The position numbers and the translations under genes are program-made. Below, piece by piece: positions 20,251 to 38,489 of a stretch of DNA of 38,489 nucleotides; position 1 is the stretch's first letter; every line of letters starts with the position of its first letter. The stretch is from Ktedonobacteria bacterium (lineage in GTDB: Bacteria; Chloroflexota; Ktedonobacteria; Ktedonobacterales; JACDGC01): assembly GCA_027459705.1 (NCBI GenBank), contig DAIDHM010000160.1:1-38489 (forward strand), written 5' to 3'. The notes beneath the pieces were generated by a model. It made no database searches. It was given only the letters and a program-made list of their open reading frames with translations, and had not been told where the DNA came from.

Positions 20251-20976
20251 ATGGGGGAGAGCGTTGCCTACACTTTGCATACTTTGGAGACCTTGCCAAC
20301 GATTTTAATCGTCGATGATGACGTGGCGATTCGGGAGTTGCTGCGCGACTTCTGCGTGGCATCCGGCTTCCAGGTTGCGCTGGCGGAGACAGGCAGCGCG
20401 GCGTTGGCGGTGCTCGACGCGCGCGCGGTCGACGCGATCGTCCTCGACATCATGATGCCCGGCATGTCTGGCTTTGATCTCGCGCGCCAGATACGTCAGA
20501 CCACTGATGTGCCAATCCTCTTCCTGAGCGCGCGCGACAGCGACGCGGATAAATTGCGTGGACTGGGCCTGGGCGGTGATGATTATATCGTCAAGACCGC
20601 GACCCCCAGCGAAGTGGTAGCACGGATCAAAGCGGTGCTACGTCGCGCGCGCCGTAGCCCGACCACCACGCCGCCGCTAGATTTCGGTCGCTTCACGTTG
20701 GATCCGCGCGCGCGCGAAGTGTTGGTCGCTGGCGCCCCGGTGACGCTCACCGCGCGGGAATATGATCTGCTCATGTTACTCGTCACGCATGCCCACCAGG
20801 TCCTGACGCACGACCAGATCTTCGAACGCATCTGGGGCGACATTGGCGACCGACACACTGTGGCGGTGCATATCAACCGACTACGCCAGAAACTGGAGCG
20901 CGATCCCGCGGAGCCAGAACTCTTCCTGACCGTCTGGGGAGTCGGCTATCGCTTTGAAGGGAGGCGCCGCCCATGA
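20251..20976 (+). CDS. OmpR-family response regulator
   Basis: The ATG at 20251 (MGESVAYTL) has GGAGGG a few bases upstream and is chosen over the in-frame start five codons earlier. The 241-residue protein has a receiver domain with acidic pocket IVDDD (residues 20-24), phospho-acceptor D66 in VLDIMMPGM and the conserved Lys in DDYIVKTATP. A winged-helix DNA-binding domain follows (LTAREYDLLMLLVTH, HTVAVHINRLRQKLE, VWGVGYRFEG). Its stop overlaps the kinase start by four bases. A 90-bp part encoding residues around D66 is copied at 22437-22526. Confidence 0.96.
   Translation: MGESVAYTLHTLETLPTILIVDDDVAIRELLRDFCVASGFQVALAETGSAALAVLDARAVDAIVLDIMMPGMSGFDLARQIRQTTDVPILFLSARDSDADKLRGLGLGGDDYIVKTATPSEVVARIKAVLRRARRSPTTTPPLDFGRFTLDPRAREVLVAGAPVTLTAREYDLLMLLVTHAHQVLTHDQIFERIWGDIGDRHTVAVHINRLRQKLERDPAEPELFLTVWGVGYRFEGRRRP
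20378..20467 (+). repeat. Source copy of a 90-bp direct repeat (response regulator)
   Basis: This stretch inside the receiver domain is repeated at 22437-22526 in the same orientation with one mismatch by eye (GACGCG here, GACACG there). It encodes the segment from the third beta strand region to MPGM, including D66. Confidence 0.95.
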
Positions 20977-22209: not shown

Positions 22210-22547
22210 CTACCCTGCAATTGAGGTAACTTGAACCTGAGCGCCAGTAGGCGATATCGTACCTGGTACTACACTTGGTAGAAGCGATCTAGATGCCAAA
22301 TACACATAACTGGGCGGAGTAAGATGCTTGTCAGCATTTACAATCAACTGTGACATGTCGGAAACTGAAGCCCAGGTGATGGTAGCGGTCACAATGCGTG
22401 TCTGCGTAAAGGTGAACGGTTGCGACTCGATAGTGCCGCTGGCGGAGACAGGCAGCGCGGCGTTGGCGGTGCTCGACACGCGCGCGGTCGACGCGATCGT
22501 CCTCGACATCATGATGCCCGGCATGTAAACTGCGTCTTTCTTCCCAT
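22210..22547 (-). pseudogene. Small gene apparently interrupted by the 90-bp copy
   Basis: On the minus strand GAGGTGATGAGA stands before an ATG at 22547 that reads MGRKTQF. Then the 90-bp response-regulator segment begins and the frame stops in it. Beyond the segment a protein-like frame resumes (TIESQPFTFTQTRIV, SDMSQLIVNADKHLTPPSYV, GAQVQVTSIAG) and ends with TAG at 22210. Removing 89 of the 90 bases would join both parts into one frame of about 83 residues, beta-rich and without a clear family. This reading fits an insertion using a base of microhomology. It could also be two unrelated scraps. Confidence 0.4.
22437..22526 (+). repeat. Displaced 90-bp copy of the response-regulator segment
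   Basis: It is 89/90 identical to 20378-20467 and lies about 2.06 kb downstream in direct orientation. Read on the plus strand it gives LAETGSAALAVLD...DIMMPGM followed at once by TAA, so it cannot be a working receiver. It seems to interrupt a minus-strand gene (see 22210-22547). Confidence 0.95.
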
Positions 22548-34138: not shown

Positions 34139-34183
34139 TCTGGCGACCAGCCGCCCGCGACGATTCCGCGCCCCCAAAATCCT

Positions 34184-34207
34184 AAAAAAATTTTCGCGCT
34201 TCGCGCG
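34184..34207 (-). terminator. Terminator-like hairpin behind the TIR-FGE gene
   Basis: On the minus strand CGCGC-GAA-GCGCG is followed by AAAATTTTTTT. It ends the DGR locus and faces the 3' end of the P-type ATPase gene. A near-copy follows VR2 at 37631-37655. Confidence 0.55.
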
Positions 34208-34303
34208 TTTGGGGACTACCCCACCGTGATCACGTTCCCCGAACGTATCACCTCACCACCATAAAAGAAAGCAAGAAAACAAGAACATTTTAGTGAGAGC
34301 CAG
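34202..34303 (-). repeat. 3' cassette of VR1 (shared with VR2)
   Basis: This 102-base block is identical at 101 positions to 37650-37751 by eye; the one difference is T at 34253 against C at 37701. It holds the last codons (GAGSH and stop TAA), a 3' untranslated stretch and the hairpin at 34226-34251. The TR has no counterpart. It probably marks the homing site that directs one-way transfer from TR to VR. Confidence 0.93.
34226..34251 (-). promoter_or_regulatory. DGR hairpin downstream of VR1
   Basis: GTGAT and ACGTTC (one bulged base between) pair with GAACGT and ATCAC around a 3-base loop, an 11-bp stem. In the Bordetella phage DGR a hairpin downstream of VR promotes homing. Here it lies about 40 bases past the stop codon, further from VR than in the phage. 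Confidence 0.6.
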
Positions 34304-35633
34304 CCCCCACCCCACGAACCAAGCGAAAACCACAGTTGTTGAGGTAGCTGCCCACGCTGCCCCTGTCGCGGATCGCCGCGCGCGCGACCCTGGAGTAGCT
34401 GCTCCACGAACCGCCCCGCAGCACTCGCACTGATGTTTTATCACTGTTATTTTCTCGCTTATTATCAGGCTGATAGGCGGAGGCATCATAGATACTGCTG
34501 GTCCACTCCCAGACATTTCCCGCCATATCATGGCAGCCATACGGACTGGCATCTCCCTCGGCGGCATACGTCCCCACCGGTGTCGTCGTCTTCACCCGAT
34601 TGTCGGTGTTGGCGCGCTGCGCGTCGAAGTCATCGCCCCAGGGATAGATCCACGACACCTGCCGCGCCGCGTCCCAGCGCGCGGCTTTCTCCCATTCCGC
34701 CTCCGTCGGCAAGCGCCAGGGTTCTCCCGTCATCCCCGCCAGCCATTCTACGTACTTCTGCGCTTCCAGCCAGGAGACGTTCACGACCGGGTGATCCAAT
34801 AACTTGAGTTGATCGGCCCAGGTGACATTGTTCCAGGTTGGTTTGGGCGGCTCGGCGACTTTACCCGCCCGTACCGCGCAGGCATATTCCGCCACCGTCA
34901 CCGGGTATTTCCCGATGGCATAGGCCCCCGTCGTCACCTGGTGCCACGGCTCATTATCCCATGCCTGGGGATCATTCTGGCTGCCCATCCAGAATGGCCC
35001 GGCCTCCACCGCGCACACGGGCGGCAGGAGCAGCTCGACCGGTCGGCCCTGCACGGCGCGCACCTGGCCGGTGAAACCCAGTTGCGCGAGACGCGGCGGG
35101 AGCTTCTCCGGCGGAAGGGTCAGCGGCGGCGGCGCGGGTTGGGGCCGCGGCGGCGCGGGAGTCGGGACGGCCTGGCCCGCCCCCGGCAGCAGCGCGGCCA
35201 GCACCGGCGAGATCGTCCGGGGTCCGCTCGTCACGCCGAGCGCGCGGAGCAGGCCCGTCAGCGCGCGGGCATAGCCATCGCGCACCGCGTCGTAATGGTG
35301 CAGCGCCTGCCAGATGTCGGGAACCTCGTTGGCATCGCACGGGGCCATGATGAAGGGGATGACATCGCGCAGCGCCCCGCGCAATTTCTTGGCAAGCGCC
35401 GCGTTGATCTCCATCTCGACAGCAGTCGAGCGCGCGGGGAGCGAATGCGGTGTCTGGACCAACACCACCCAATCACTCACCGCCAGCCCCTGGTTCATGC
35501 GCTTGATGAAGTCGTCGTGGTCAATCTGCTCCAGGTCGACCCAGACCTCCAATCCGGCATTGCGCAGATCCTCAACGAAGGGCACGACCAGTTGATTATC
35601 TTTGTGGCTATGGCTCACGAATTTCTTTGGCAT
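34290..35633 (-). CDS. TIR-domain protein with DGR-diversified FGE-sulfatase (CLec) domain
   Basis: The ATG at 35633 (MPKKFVSHSHKDN) has AGGAG seven bases upstream. The 447-residue protein has three parts. The N-terminal TIR domain (about residues 3-140) has the SHSHKD box and WVDLEQIDHDDF; E75 in VEMEINAAL aligns with the usual NADase glutamate. A Pro-rich linker follows (about 165-200). The C-terminal FGE-sulfatase/C-type-lectin domain has [43 protein letters not shown] and CGFRLVRG. Residues 403-443 are VR1, so its binding face is rewritten from the TR. Expected role: a sensor coupled to an NAD-consuming or signalling effector. It lies 333 bases downstream of the TR, on the same strand. 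Confidence 0.95.
   Translation of the reverse strand: MPKKFVSHSHKDNQLVVPFVEDLRNAGLEVWVDLEQIDHDDFIKRMNQGLAVSDWVVLVQTPHSLPARSTAVEMEINAALAKKLRGALRDVIPFIMAPCDANEVPDIWQALHHYDAVRDGYARALTGLLRALGVTSGPRTISPVLAALLPGAGQAVPTPAPPRPQPAPPPLTLPPEKLPPRLAQLGFTGQVRAVQGRPVELLLPPVCAVEAGPFWMGSQNDPQAWDNEPWHQVTTGAYAIGKYPVTVAEYACAVRAGKVAEPPKPTWNNVTWADQLKLLDHPVVNVSWLEAQKYVEWLAGMTGEPWRLPTEAEWEKAARWDAARQVSWIYPWGDDFDAQRANTDNRVKTTTPVGTYAAEGDASPYGCHDMAGNVWEWTSSIYDASAYQPDNKRENNSDKTSVRVLRGGSWSSYSRVARAAIRDRGSVGSYLNNCGFRLVRGVGAGSH
34304..34425 (-). repeat. DGR variable repeat 1 (VR1)
   Basis: This is a 122-base counterpart of the TR at 35967-36088. Fifteen positions differ and all are adenines in the TR on the coding (minus) strand; every C, G and T is unchanged. 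It encodes RGGSW-SSYSRVARAAIRDRG and onward, where the TR would read [20 protein letters not shown]. The A-specific pattern is diagnostic of mutagenic retrohoming. Confidence 0.98.
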
Positions 35634-35686
35634 CACCATGCTCCTCGTCCCGGTCTCGCCGCCAGCACTCGGCCGATCATAGTCAC

Positions 35687-35716
35687 AGGATAGCACGCGC
35701 CTGGCTAACAGCACAA
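35687..35716 (-). promoter_or_regulatory. Candidate promoter of the TIR-FGE gene
   Basis: On the minus strand TTGTGC (35716-35711) and TATCCT (35692-35687) are 18 bases apart, with TGC directly before the -10 (extended). The start codon is about 55 bases further. If real, the TIR gene can be expressed apart from the RT-avd-TR transcript. The match is moderate. Confidence 0.35.
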
Positions 35717-35966
35717 GGGGGAAGGGTGAAGAGCAAAACGACGCGTGCCCAATCTCCCACCAGGCGTGAAACACGACGCAGGCTGAGACCCGACACGCAT
35801 CTGTTTTTATATGCCGCTGGCCAGAATACTGTCGCGAACAGCACGCTGGACCTCAGCGAGGACCTGGCCGCGCTGGCTCATCCTTTTAAGGGGACAAGCG
35901 ATTGGGCCGCGCCGATCATGATCTTGCGACATGCGCCGGTTTACTGGCCCACCCCTGGATGGTCAT
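35717..35966 (-). other. Non-coding stretch between TR and the TIR-FGE gene
   Basis: No gene is supported. It lies directly 3' of the TR in the direction of transcription, the place where the Bordetella phage DGR has a spacer RNA needed for priming cDNA synthesis. The first bases after the TR (GATGACCATCCAGGGGTGGG on the minus strand) differ from the VR 3' cassettes. A structured RNA is expected by analogy, but I could not fold it. Confidence 0.4.
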
Positions 35967-36088
35967 CCCCCACCCCACGAACCAAGCGAAAACCACAGTT
36001 GTTGTTGTAGTTGTCTACGTTGTTCCTGTTGCGGTTCGCCGCGCGCGCGTTCCTGGAGTTGTTGTTCCACGAACCGCCCCGCAGCACT
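35967..36088 (-). repeat. DGR template repeat (TR)
   Basis: This 122-base repeat lies 42 bases downstream of avd. Its coding-strand core is dominated by AAC codons, with the flanks (LRGGSW and CGFRLVRG) and an inner ARAA island written without adenine. Non-adenine bases agree with VR1 and VR2 over the full length. The left (3') boundary is the G tract, where TR continues GATGACC and both VRs continue GCTGGC, the expected IMH*/IMH difference. It is the RNA template for the reverse transcriptase and is not expected to be translated. Confidence 0.98.
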
Positions 36089-36130: not shown

Positions 36131-36505
36131 TCACGGCGCGGAGGCGCTGGGAACTGCCAATTTGGTCTGGACGGTCCGTCGCCAGGCTTCCAACAGTCGG
36201 CCAATCTCCGTCAGGCGTTCCGAGGCGTACTCGTATTGCTTCACGGTGATAAAGGTCAATTTATGTGCCAGGCGCAGCGAGAAACGAATCTGCGCGAGCC
36301 GCACCGCGACCTCGTCCAGCTGCAGGGCGGTGGCTGCCAAGGACGTGCTCATCCCCGCGCGAATGGCCGCCTCGTGCGCCGCGAACACCTGTTGTTGCAA
36401 ATGTTCCGCGACGATGAAGCGTTGTTCGCGTGGAAACTTGGCTGTCATGGGAATGACCCAGGCGACAAAATCAAAGAGCTTGACGAACAAGGGTGATTCT
36501 TTCAT
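36131..36505 (-). CDS. avd: Avd-like DGR accessory protein (four-helix bundle)
   Basis: The ATG at 36505 overlaps the reverse transcriptase stop (ATGA), so translation is coupled and the longer frame upstream is rejected. The 124-residue protein has the length and helical pattern of Avd and related S23/IVP four-helix-bundle proteins: [60 protein letters not shown] and [20 protein letters not shown]. Avd forms a basic pentamer that binds the RT and TR RNA and is required for homing. The TR begins 42 bases downstream, the classical avd-TR order. Confidence 0.93.
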
Positions 36506-37611
36506 GGCTCCTCCTCGGCATCGGACGTCCTCACTATGAGCAACGATTCGCGCAACCGCCAGGTATAGCCGTGTGCCACATGGGCTATCCATCCCCGGAT
36601 ACGCGTCCGCATCGTCGCGATGGGGAGTTCACCAGCCTGATAGGCGCGATACATACTGCGCAGACGACGCGCGAAGGCCACGCCATTGCGGCGACGCAGA
36701 CGACGATGGGTGGGGAAGACCTGGAAACCCAGGAAAGGGAATCCCACTCGCACCGGTGTGACGGTACTCTCACGTACATGCAGAGTCATGCGTAGTTGAG
36801 AGGCAAGGAAGGCGATGATGGCCGCTTTCCAACGATGCAACGTGGCCTTATCGTTACTGAAGAGCAGGAAATCGTCGACATAGCGCAGATACGCCGGACA
36901 ACGCAATTCGCTCATGACGAAGAGGTCCAGCGGATGCAGGTAACAGTTAGCCCAGAACTGCGAGGTCTGGTTGCCAATGGGGAGGCCACGAGGTCGTAGC
37001 GCCGCGACTGTGGGATCATCGCCTGGGAAGACCACCAGAGTATATTGATCGACTAATTCTCCCACCCCACCTGCCAAAATGCGTTCACAGAGCCAGAGCA
37101 CCGCATCATCGCGCACGACGCGCGCCAGGTTGCGGCGCAAAATAGCATGATCGATGGAGGGGAAGCACTGGACAATATCACAACGCAGCACATATTTGTA
37201 GCGCCGGGCATACAGCTTCGCCTGGCGCAGGGCCTTATGGATACCCTTGCCGAGCCGATTGGCATAGGAGTGAGGGATAAAGCGTCGCTCATAGAGCGGT
37301 TCCAGAACATTGACCAGCGCATGATGGACAACGCGGTCGGCGAAAGGCGCCGCCGAGATGACGCGTGGTTTGGGGTCGGTGATGGTGAAACGACGATAGG
37401 GACCAGGCCGATAGGTCCGCGCGACGAGCCGGTCGCGTAAACGCAGGAGCCACCCTTCCAGATGATAATCAAAAGCGGCAACATCTGGCCGCGCGCGTTT
37501 GCCGCGCGCGGCCTGGCGATAGGCCTGTAATAACGCCTCAAAGGAACTGAGCCGCTCGAAAGGCGTCATTGCTGGTTCTACAGGCGCTTCATCCGGGTTG
37601 ACTGGCTCCAT
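36502..37611 (-). CDS. DGR reverse transcriptase
   Basis: This 369-residue enzyme copies TR RNA into cDNA with errors at adenines. The ATG at 37611 (MEPVNPDEAP) follows GAGAGGAG; the TTG seven codons earlier lies inside that site. Visible parts are an N-terminal region with FEALLQAYRQAARGK, motif A CDIVQCFPSID (D145), the DGR-type motif IGNQTSQ (residues 212-218, in place of the QG of other RTs) and catalytic YVDD (D246, D247). The later VGFPFLGFQVF follows. There is no maturase or endonuclease domain, and the length is typical for a DGR RT. It lies between the VR2 gene and avd on the same strand. Confidence 0.97.
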   Translation of the reverse strand: MEPVNPDEAPVEPAMTPFERLSSFEALLQAYRQAARGKRARPDVAAFDYHLEGWLLRLRDRLVARTYRPGPYRRFTITDPKPRVISAAPFADRVVHHALVNVLEPLYERRFIPHSYANRLGKGIHKALRQAKLYARRYKYVLRCDIVQCFPSIDHAILRRNLARVVRDDAVLWLCERILAGGVGELVDQYTLVVFPGDDPTVAALRPRGLPIGNQTSQFWANCYLHPLDLFVMSELRCPAYLRYVDDFLLFSNDKATLHRWKAAIIAFLASQLRMTLHVRESTVTPVRVGFPFLGFQVFPTHRRLRRRNGVAFARRLRSMYRAYQAGELPIATMRTRIRGWIAHVAHGYTWRLRESLLIVRTSDAEEEP

Positions 37612-37630
37612 CGCGCTCCTCTCCCCCTCC

Positions 37631-37655
37631 AAAAAATTTTTTCGCGCTACGCGCG
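37631..37655 (-). terminator. Terminator-like hairpin between VR2 gene and RT
   Basis: On the minus strand CGCGC-GTA-GCGCG is followed by AAAAAATTTTTT, and the RT ribosome binding site starts right after. It could limit RT expression to read-through from the VR2 gene. It is a near-copy of the hairpin at 34184-34207. Confidence 0.5.
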
Positions 37656-37751
37656 TTTGGGGACTACCCCACCGTGATCACGTTCCCCGAACGTATCACC
37701 CCACCACCATAAAAGAAAGCAAGAAAACAAGAACATTTTAGTGAGAGCCAG
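37650..37751 (-). repeat. 3' cassette of VR2 (shared with VR1)
   Basis: It is 101/102 identical to 34202-34303 and contains the last codons GAGSH, stop TAA, the 3' untranslated stretch and a hairpin. Its right end touches VR2. Together with the VR, a block of about 224 bases is common to both target genes. Confidence 0.93.
37674..37699 (-). promoter_or_regulatory. DGR hairpin downstream of VR2
   Basis: The sequence and structure are identical to the hairpin behind VR1: GTGAT, a bulged base, ACGTTC, a CCC loop, GAACGT, ATCAC. Conservation between two otherwise separate 3' ends suggests a function in homing. Confidence 0.6.
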
Positions 37752-38489
37752 CCCCCACCCCACGAACCAAGCGAAAACCACAGTCGTTGTAGCAGTTGCC
37801 TACGTTGTCCCAGCCGCGGTGCGCCGCGCGCGCGCCCCCGGAGAAGTCGACCCACGAACCGCCCCGCAGCACGTGATATTTTGTGTGATCGGCATTATCA
37901 TCACATTTTTGCTTGTCGAATGGATAGGGCAGGTAAATGGAGTGGCACCACTCCCAGACATTGCCGATCATGTCATGGCAGCCAGCGGGCGTCGTGTCGC
38001 GCGCTGCGTATGTCCCGATGCTGGTGGTCATCCCCGGGCTGCCCTGCTCGAAGATATTGGCCCGTCCGCGCTCCCATTTCGGCCCCCATGGATAGATGCG
38101 CCCATCCGTGCCCCGCGCGGCCTTCTCCCATTCCGCCTCGGTCGGCAGGCGCCAGGGTTCGCCCGTCACCTTTGCCAGCCAGGCGGCGTAATCGCGCGCG
38201 TTCTGCCAGCTCACCAACACGACAGGGTGGTCGGCGCGCTGCTGTTGCTGGATGGTCCAGGTCAGGGTCTTCTTGCGCCAGTCTTTGTTGACCGAATCCC
38301 AATCTGGGAACGTCGTATCCGGCGGGGCCTTGACCGCGGGATTGGCGGCGAGGTATTTGGCATACTCGGCGACGGTCACCGGATACGCCGCCATCTCATA
38401 GGCCGCGACATCGATGGCGTACTGTGGCTGTTCATCATCACGTGCTTCCGGGTCCTGGGCTTTATTGCTGCCCATCAGGAACTCGCCCG
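37738..38489 (-). CDS. DGR-diversified FGE-sulfatase (CLec) domain protein, N-terminus outside window
   Basis: The frame is open to the right edge, where it reads [15 protein letters not shown]; this Met is internal to the domain, so the start and any N-terminal effector lie outside. Visible motifs are [71 protein letters not shown] and CGFRLVRG, the FGE-sulfatase/C-type-lectin fold. The last 40 or so residues are VR2. It is probably a receptor and not a formylglycine-generating enzyme. It stands directly upstream of the RT and may share its transcript. Confidence 0.95.
37752..37872 (-). repeat. DGR variable repeat 2 (VR2)
   Basis: This is a 121-base counterpart of the TR. Seventeen positions differ and all are TR adenines on the coding strand. 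It encodes [20 protein letters not shown] and onward. The set of altered positions differs from VR1, so the two targets were diversified in separate events. Confidence 0.98.

Follow-up and report, generated by a model that had tools for sequence, protein, structure and literature searches.

The window, by which we mean the whole 38,489-nt stretch of DNA analysed here, carries a diversity-generating retroelement (DGR) with its genes arranged on one strand in the order target 2 - RT - Avd - TR - target 1 (Table 1). DGR-type RTs are marked by a GxxxSQ motif that replaces QGxxxSP, and LPIGNQTSQ in the RT of the window conforms to this pattern. No DGR-specific NCBIfam RT model matched this RT, the best match being a group II RT model for which it scored under the cut-off; its nearest named relatives come from Ktedonobacterales (Chloroflexota) assemblies. 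The Avd accessory protein was recovered above the cut-off in a profile search (PF22296, 6e-18), and its NCBIfam score against NF033474, 76.5 bits, falls just under the cut-off of 80. In both target proteins the match to PF03781 extends to the final residues, placing each VR at the 3' end of an FGE gene; the listed ORF of target 1 (VP1) begins further upstream than the gene itself probably does. The FGE domains of the targets match FGE structures and TvpA (PDB 2y3c) by sequence, and the varied residues are probably exposed at the protein surface. Elsewhere in the window, a 90-nt direct repeat of 99% identity (20378-20467 and 22437-22526) codes for a response-regulator-like stretch.

Table 1. 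Positions of the DGR features in the window and of the related loci elsewhere in the genome
Feature	Position	Strand	Description
Post-VR1 element	34180-34300	minus	pyrimidine tract, GGGG..CCCC, CGCGC-GNA-GCGCG hairpin, then A4T7
Target gene 1 (VP1)	34290-35774	minus	TIR_2 (PF13676) and FGE-sulfatase (PF03781)
VR1	34301-34425	minus	3' end of TIR-FGE target gene
Template repeat (TR)	35964-36088	minus	reading frame from 36087
Avd accessory protein	36131-36592	minus	PF22296 bAvd
DGR reverse transcriptase (RT)	36502-37632	minus	PF00078; YVDD, LPIGNQTSQ
Post-VR2 element	37628-37748	minus	same element as post-VR1
Target gene 2 (VP2)	37738-38487	minus	FGE-sulfatase domain; 5' end beyond contig end
VR2	37749-37873	minus	3' end of second FGE target gene
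Remote target genes	L009:529-4095, L010:317-3988, L011:2175-4184, L012:4913-6295		NACHT/AAA-HEAT-FGE and TIR-FGE
Second VR family loci	L016 (C64:1500-5355), L014 (C221), L015 (C210), L236 (C179)		

A repeat of 125 nt occurs three times in the window, and the copy at 35964-36088 is assigned as the TR because its differences from both other copies all fall at its own adenines. It aligns to VR1 and VR2 without gaps or indels, and the 16 and 19 substitutions, respectively, are all located at TR adenines. The coordinates and reading frame given in the first-pass annotation, together with the residue changes that it listed for VR1 and VR2, proved correct. Five further full VRs are present on five other contigs of the genome, making seven in all; relative to the TR these show 110 base differences, 108 of them at TR adenines, and no indel. 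Seven of the 110, at the 3' end, are a fixed A-to-C difference that belongs to the IMH/IMH* contrast: the TR carries an IMH*-type GGGGATGAC there, where every VR has GGGGCTGGC. Nine relatives show a pair of A-to-C/A-to-G differences equivalent to this contrast of ATGA in the IMH* with CTGG in the IMH. In this genome, AAC has changed at its second A in 41 of 84 instances, never to C. Lone adenines (in AGG, GTA and TAC at TR codons 12, 21, 24 and 27; 36054-36007) have changed in only one or two of the seven VRs, while GAC has changed in five of the seven and most AAC sites have changed more often than the lone adenines.

The complete remote targets comprise two NACHT/AAA-HEAT-FGE and two TIR-FGE proteins, so that a single template seems to supply variation in trans to putative immune sensors of two kinds. 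Window and remote VRs share the IMH, and all seven, including the remote ones (L009-L013), have the conserved post-VR element in common, in which a hairpin with a constant stem and a variable loop base is followed by an A/T run. The hairpin element may serve to mark the target, as a terminator, or in both roles. Several VRs or target genes are found close to the ends of contigs (C12, C134, C224 and the right end of the window), a placement suggesting that the assembly breaks at VR repeats and may lack additional targets. The genome also contains a second VR family (VLRGGSW...RLARVPVPGS, with the IMH CTGGTTCA) in four FGE genes. A search of the genome assembly for its TR found none, and the only RT trace associated with it is a fragment with a TGA at C64:3700-3924; this family belongs either to a DGR that has decayed or to one with a TR absent from the assembly.

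In its A-specific changes, IMH/IMH* pair, post-VR hairpin, combination of RT with Avd and AAC-rich TR, the present system resembles the DGR of Bordetella phage BPP-1 (mtd, avd, TR, bRT; PMC12875486, PMC3240598). Unlike the phage system, it is cellular, has the order target2-RT-avd-TR-target1 and has many remote targets. Its hairpin, which lies some 85-110 nt past the VR, consists of a 5-bp CGCGC stem with a GNA triloop, whereas the phage consensus is a 7-10 bp stem with a GRNA tetraloop, 4-34 bp after the VR. Several targets per genome, remote and degenerate loci, and fusion of FGE/CLec C-termini to TIR or NACHT/STAND domains are also found in the cellular multi-target DGRs of multicellular bacteria, as in Thiohalocapsa PB-PSB1 (Dore et al. 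2024, PMC10907252); the present case is distinct in that a single Chloroflexota genome has one intact TR/RT/Avd set to which seven VRs correspond. A further parallel is the TvpA DGR of Treponema denticola, which has an FGE-type CLec target (PDB 2y3c by sequence) and varied Asn codons.

Read in the frame of the VRs, the TR contains 17 A-bearing codons (12 AAC, two AGG, and one each of GAC, TAC and GTA), the rest being free of A. Variation is confined much as the first-pass annotation had described, with a count of 16 protein-changing codons in place of its approximate 15, the adenine of GTA being silent. Among sense codons, changes at A can produce a stop only in AAA, AAG and AGA, none of which occurs in the TR, and a full enumeration of A-to-N changes in any combination gave zero stops. 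These changes allow about 1.9e16 protein variants. The proposal that the template offers no accessible stops, originally framed for single and double substitutions, therefore holds for any number. The scaffold motifs LRGGSW, ARAA and CGFRLVRG are indeed spelled without adenine.

The first-pass annotation further held that the codons are arranged to protect the scaffold and avoid stops, and proposed enumeration against synonymous shuffles as a check. In this TR alone, zero stops were found, but the shuffles gave mixed values that do not show enrichment. Stop avoidance has a P of 0.81 under local and 0.28 under uniform codon usage; at local usage, 81% of synonymous codings are equally stop-proof, because the peptide lacks Lys and AGA is rare. 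Over the 18 codons of the three named motifs, which define the scaffold in these P-values, complete absence of A has P=0.07 at local usage (0.001 uniform), and absence of protein-changing A has P=0.42 (0.09 uniform). Stop avoidance in the single TR thus follows from the choice of amino acids, with no Lys and with Asn at the varied sites, and not from an unusual synonymous coding; arrangement of the codons against stops emerges across many TRs.

We gathered relatives of the RT from genomes and viral contigs and, from A-specific mismatches, detected TR/VR pairs de novo. Reading frames were set from VR (not TR) motifs and ORF length, five of them by hand, and two pairs were dropped, yielding 105 non-redundant TRs whose frame could be read; 85 of these had an RT gene long enough to supply a codon-usage background. 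Among the A-bearing codons of these 85 TRs, only five are stop-reachable, against 144 expected; one of the five is an in-frame TAG at the TR edge, and four of the 85 TRs retain one AAA, AAG or AGA, some at the edge. Lys accounts for 3 of 2637 TR codons versus 5.1% in the RT genes. Relative to expectation, AAG, AAA and AGA stand at 0.02x, 0.03x and 0.05x, whereas sister codons without access to a stop are depleted less (GAG+CAG 0.28x, GAA+CAA 0.22x; range 0.18-0.32x; Fisher 1e-5 and 4e-4). The bias reaches the synonymous level, AGA:AGG being 1:93 in TRs versus 210:292 in RT genes (p=1.5e-18), although the shared history of the surveyed sequences makes these p-values optimistic. After thinning of the RTs to below 60% identity (27 TRs), one stop-reachable codon remains against 50 expected, deeper thinning leaving small numbers. 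No internal stop was present among 128 VRs. The stop rule is thus strong across the 85 TRs, including the use of AGG instead of AGA.

Stop-proof template coding is an already published design rule: AAY or AAC codons have been described as permitting wide variation without stops (PMC5006420, PMC12875486), and targeted codons as avoiding nonsense, with variation located in the first two codon positions (PMC10907252). It is not universal among DGR TRs. A published exception is Treponema denticola, whose TvpA TRs, unlike the present one, use Lys codons and are not stop-proof (PMC4891356).

A second bias concerns the third position of the Asn codons. All 12 Asn codons of the present TR are AAC (P=1.3e-4; 1.5e-5 with GAC and TAC), at a local usage in which AAC and AAT are about equal (48% AAC), and in the surveyed TRs AAC:AAT is 689:171, where 54% AAC is expected. 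Stop avoidance does not account for this bias, because the 15 amino acids reachable from AAC are equally reachable from AAT, again without a stop. We consider it about an even bet that the bias instead reflects tuning of the RT error profile by the 3' cytosine. In the survey, the first and second A of AAC have changed in 70% and 50% of cases, with outcomes mostly Tyr, Asp, Ser and Gly, compared with 0.63 and 0.40 for AAT, and fewer A-to-C changes occur at the second A in AAC than in AAT. This spectrum is much like that of the BPP-1 RT in E. coli, for which a distinct AAC profile favouring Tyr, Ser and Asp has been reported (PMC12875486). Against such tuning, TTC, TCC and ATC are also raised over the T-ending codons in TRs, so part of the bias may be a general preference for C, and the VR spectra have been filtered by selection.

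Adenine is scarce in TRs even where its mutation has no consequence for the protein. At the third position of fourfold-degenerate codons we counted 40 adenines versus 179 expected (0.22x, a deficit of about 4.5-fold), and 74 of the 85 TRs lie below expectation; in the control region of the same genes, codons -50 to -8 upstream of the VR, the count is 252 versus 257 expected (0.98x). The deficit is present in all four GC quarters, and with the RTs thinned to less than 60% identity the ratio is 0.12. CTA, GTA, CGA and GCA stand at 0.06-0.24x, and it is mainly G that takes the place of A at silent sites, standing at 1.34x in TRs versus 1.02x upstream. Chance in a GC-rich genome with few Lys and AGA codons would suit the single TR, whose P values at local usage are 0.81 for stop avoidance and 0.42 for protection of the scaffold. 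The survey of 85 TRs refutes this reading, which we regard as extremely improbable: the AT-richer quarter (GC 0.38-0.53) shows the pattern as strongly or more so, with 7 silent adenines against 80 expected and an AGA:AGG ratio of 0:15 versus 135:126.

Protection of the scaffold predicts no avoidance of A at fourfold sites, because A-to-N changes there are silent; the purging of adenine from such sites therefore means that protein protection is not the whole explanation. The earlier proposal of scaffold protection is in this respect incomplete, and the preference for AAC over AAT improves neither stop avoidance nor the range of amino acids. Avoidance of AGA may partly be the same effect as the silent-adenine deficit. 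Stop avoidance nevertheless exists in its own right, because AAG, which has no third-position A, is depleted too. In literature that was mostly openly readable, we found no earlier report of the silent-adenine deficit or of the AGA/AGG contrast; the deficit is apparently new, without priority being established.

These data raise the possibility, to which we assign roughly equal odds for and against, that DGR templates are under pressure to lose adenines as such, reflecting either a balance of diversity against copying and homing efficiency or the footprint of re-founding. For the first, each additional A would be costly through cDNA-target mismatch, lower cDNA yield or frame slips, and the A-free scaffold would largely be a by-product. 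The contrast between TRs and upstream codons, its persistence after thinning and the depletion of CTA, GTA, CGA and GCA all favour such a cost, but the deficit does not vary clearly with the base that follows (0.15 vs 0.26), nor does it change monotonically along the TR. Moreover, a few synonymous TR changes left the repair frequency unaltered (PMC12875486), although added adenines were not among them. On balance, we hold a cost per adenine to be a serious candidate that falls somewhat short of an even chance. Frame slips in A runs were considered separately as the cause of the deficit and rejected, there being no clear next-base difference.

For the second, TRs would occasionally be re-founded from A-depleted VR copies, and only the adenines under selection, those of the AAC sites, would be kept; silent adenines would then vanish without counter-selection, because VR copies have already lost adenines by mutation. 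The replacement of silent A mainly by G agrees with this scenario, as A-to-G is the commonest change at AAC; A-to-G is an ordinary transition as well, however, and no re-founding event was observed here. We consider re-founding rather unlikely.

We conclude, with a probability of about 0.93, that 35964-36088 is the TR of a multi-target DGR in a Chloroflexota (Ktedonobacterales-like) genome and that its layout is stop-proof. We envision that the RT copies the TR RNA and misincorporates opposite adenines, and that in at least seven FGE/C-type-lectin genes, of the TIR-FGE and NACHT/STAND-HEAT-FGE kinds, the resulting cDNA would take the place of the VR at the 3' end. Adenines are placed at the first and second positions of the sites to vary, mostly as AAC, with Lys and AGA excluded; because of this exclusion no product can contain a stop. 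Such mutagenic retrohoming is predicted from the sequence of the locus, activity of the DGR in this organism is presumed from one assembly, and the codon layout has probably been kept by selection.

The analysis documents, in a Chloroflexota genome, a multi-target DGR feeding TIR and NACHT-type proteins that are putative immune sensors. It also puts numbers, with controls, to a rule usually drawn from single examples, that AAY codons avoid stops. The silent-adenine deficit falls outside the usual explanation and provides a testable handle on the cost of adenine to the template, which would guide template design for DGR-based directed evolution.
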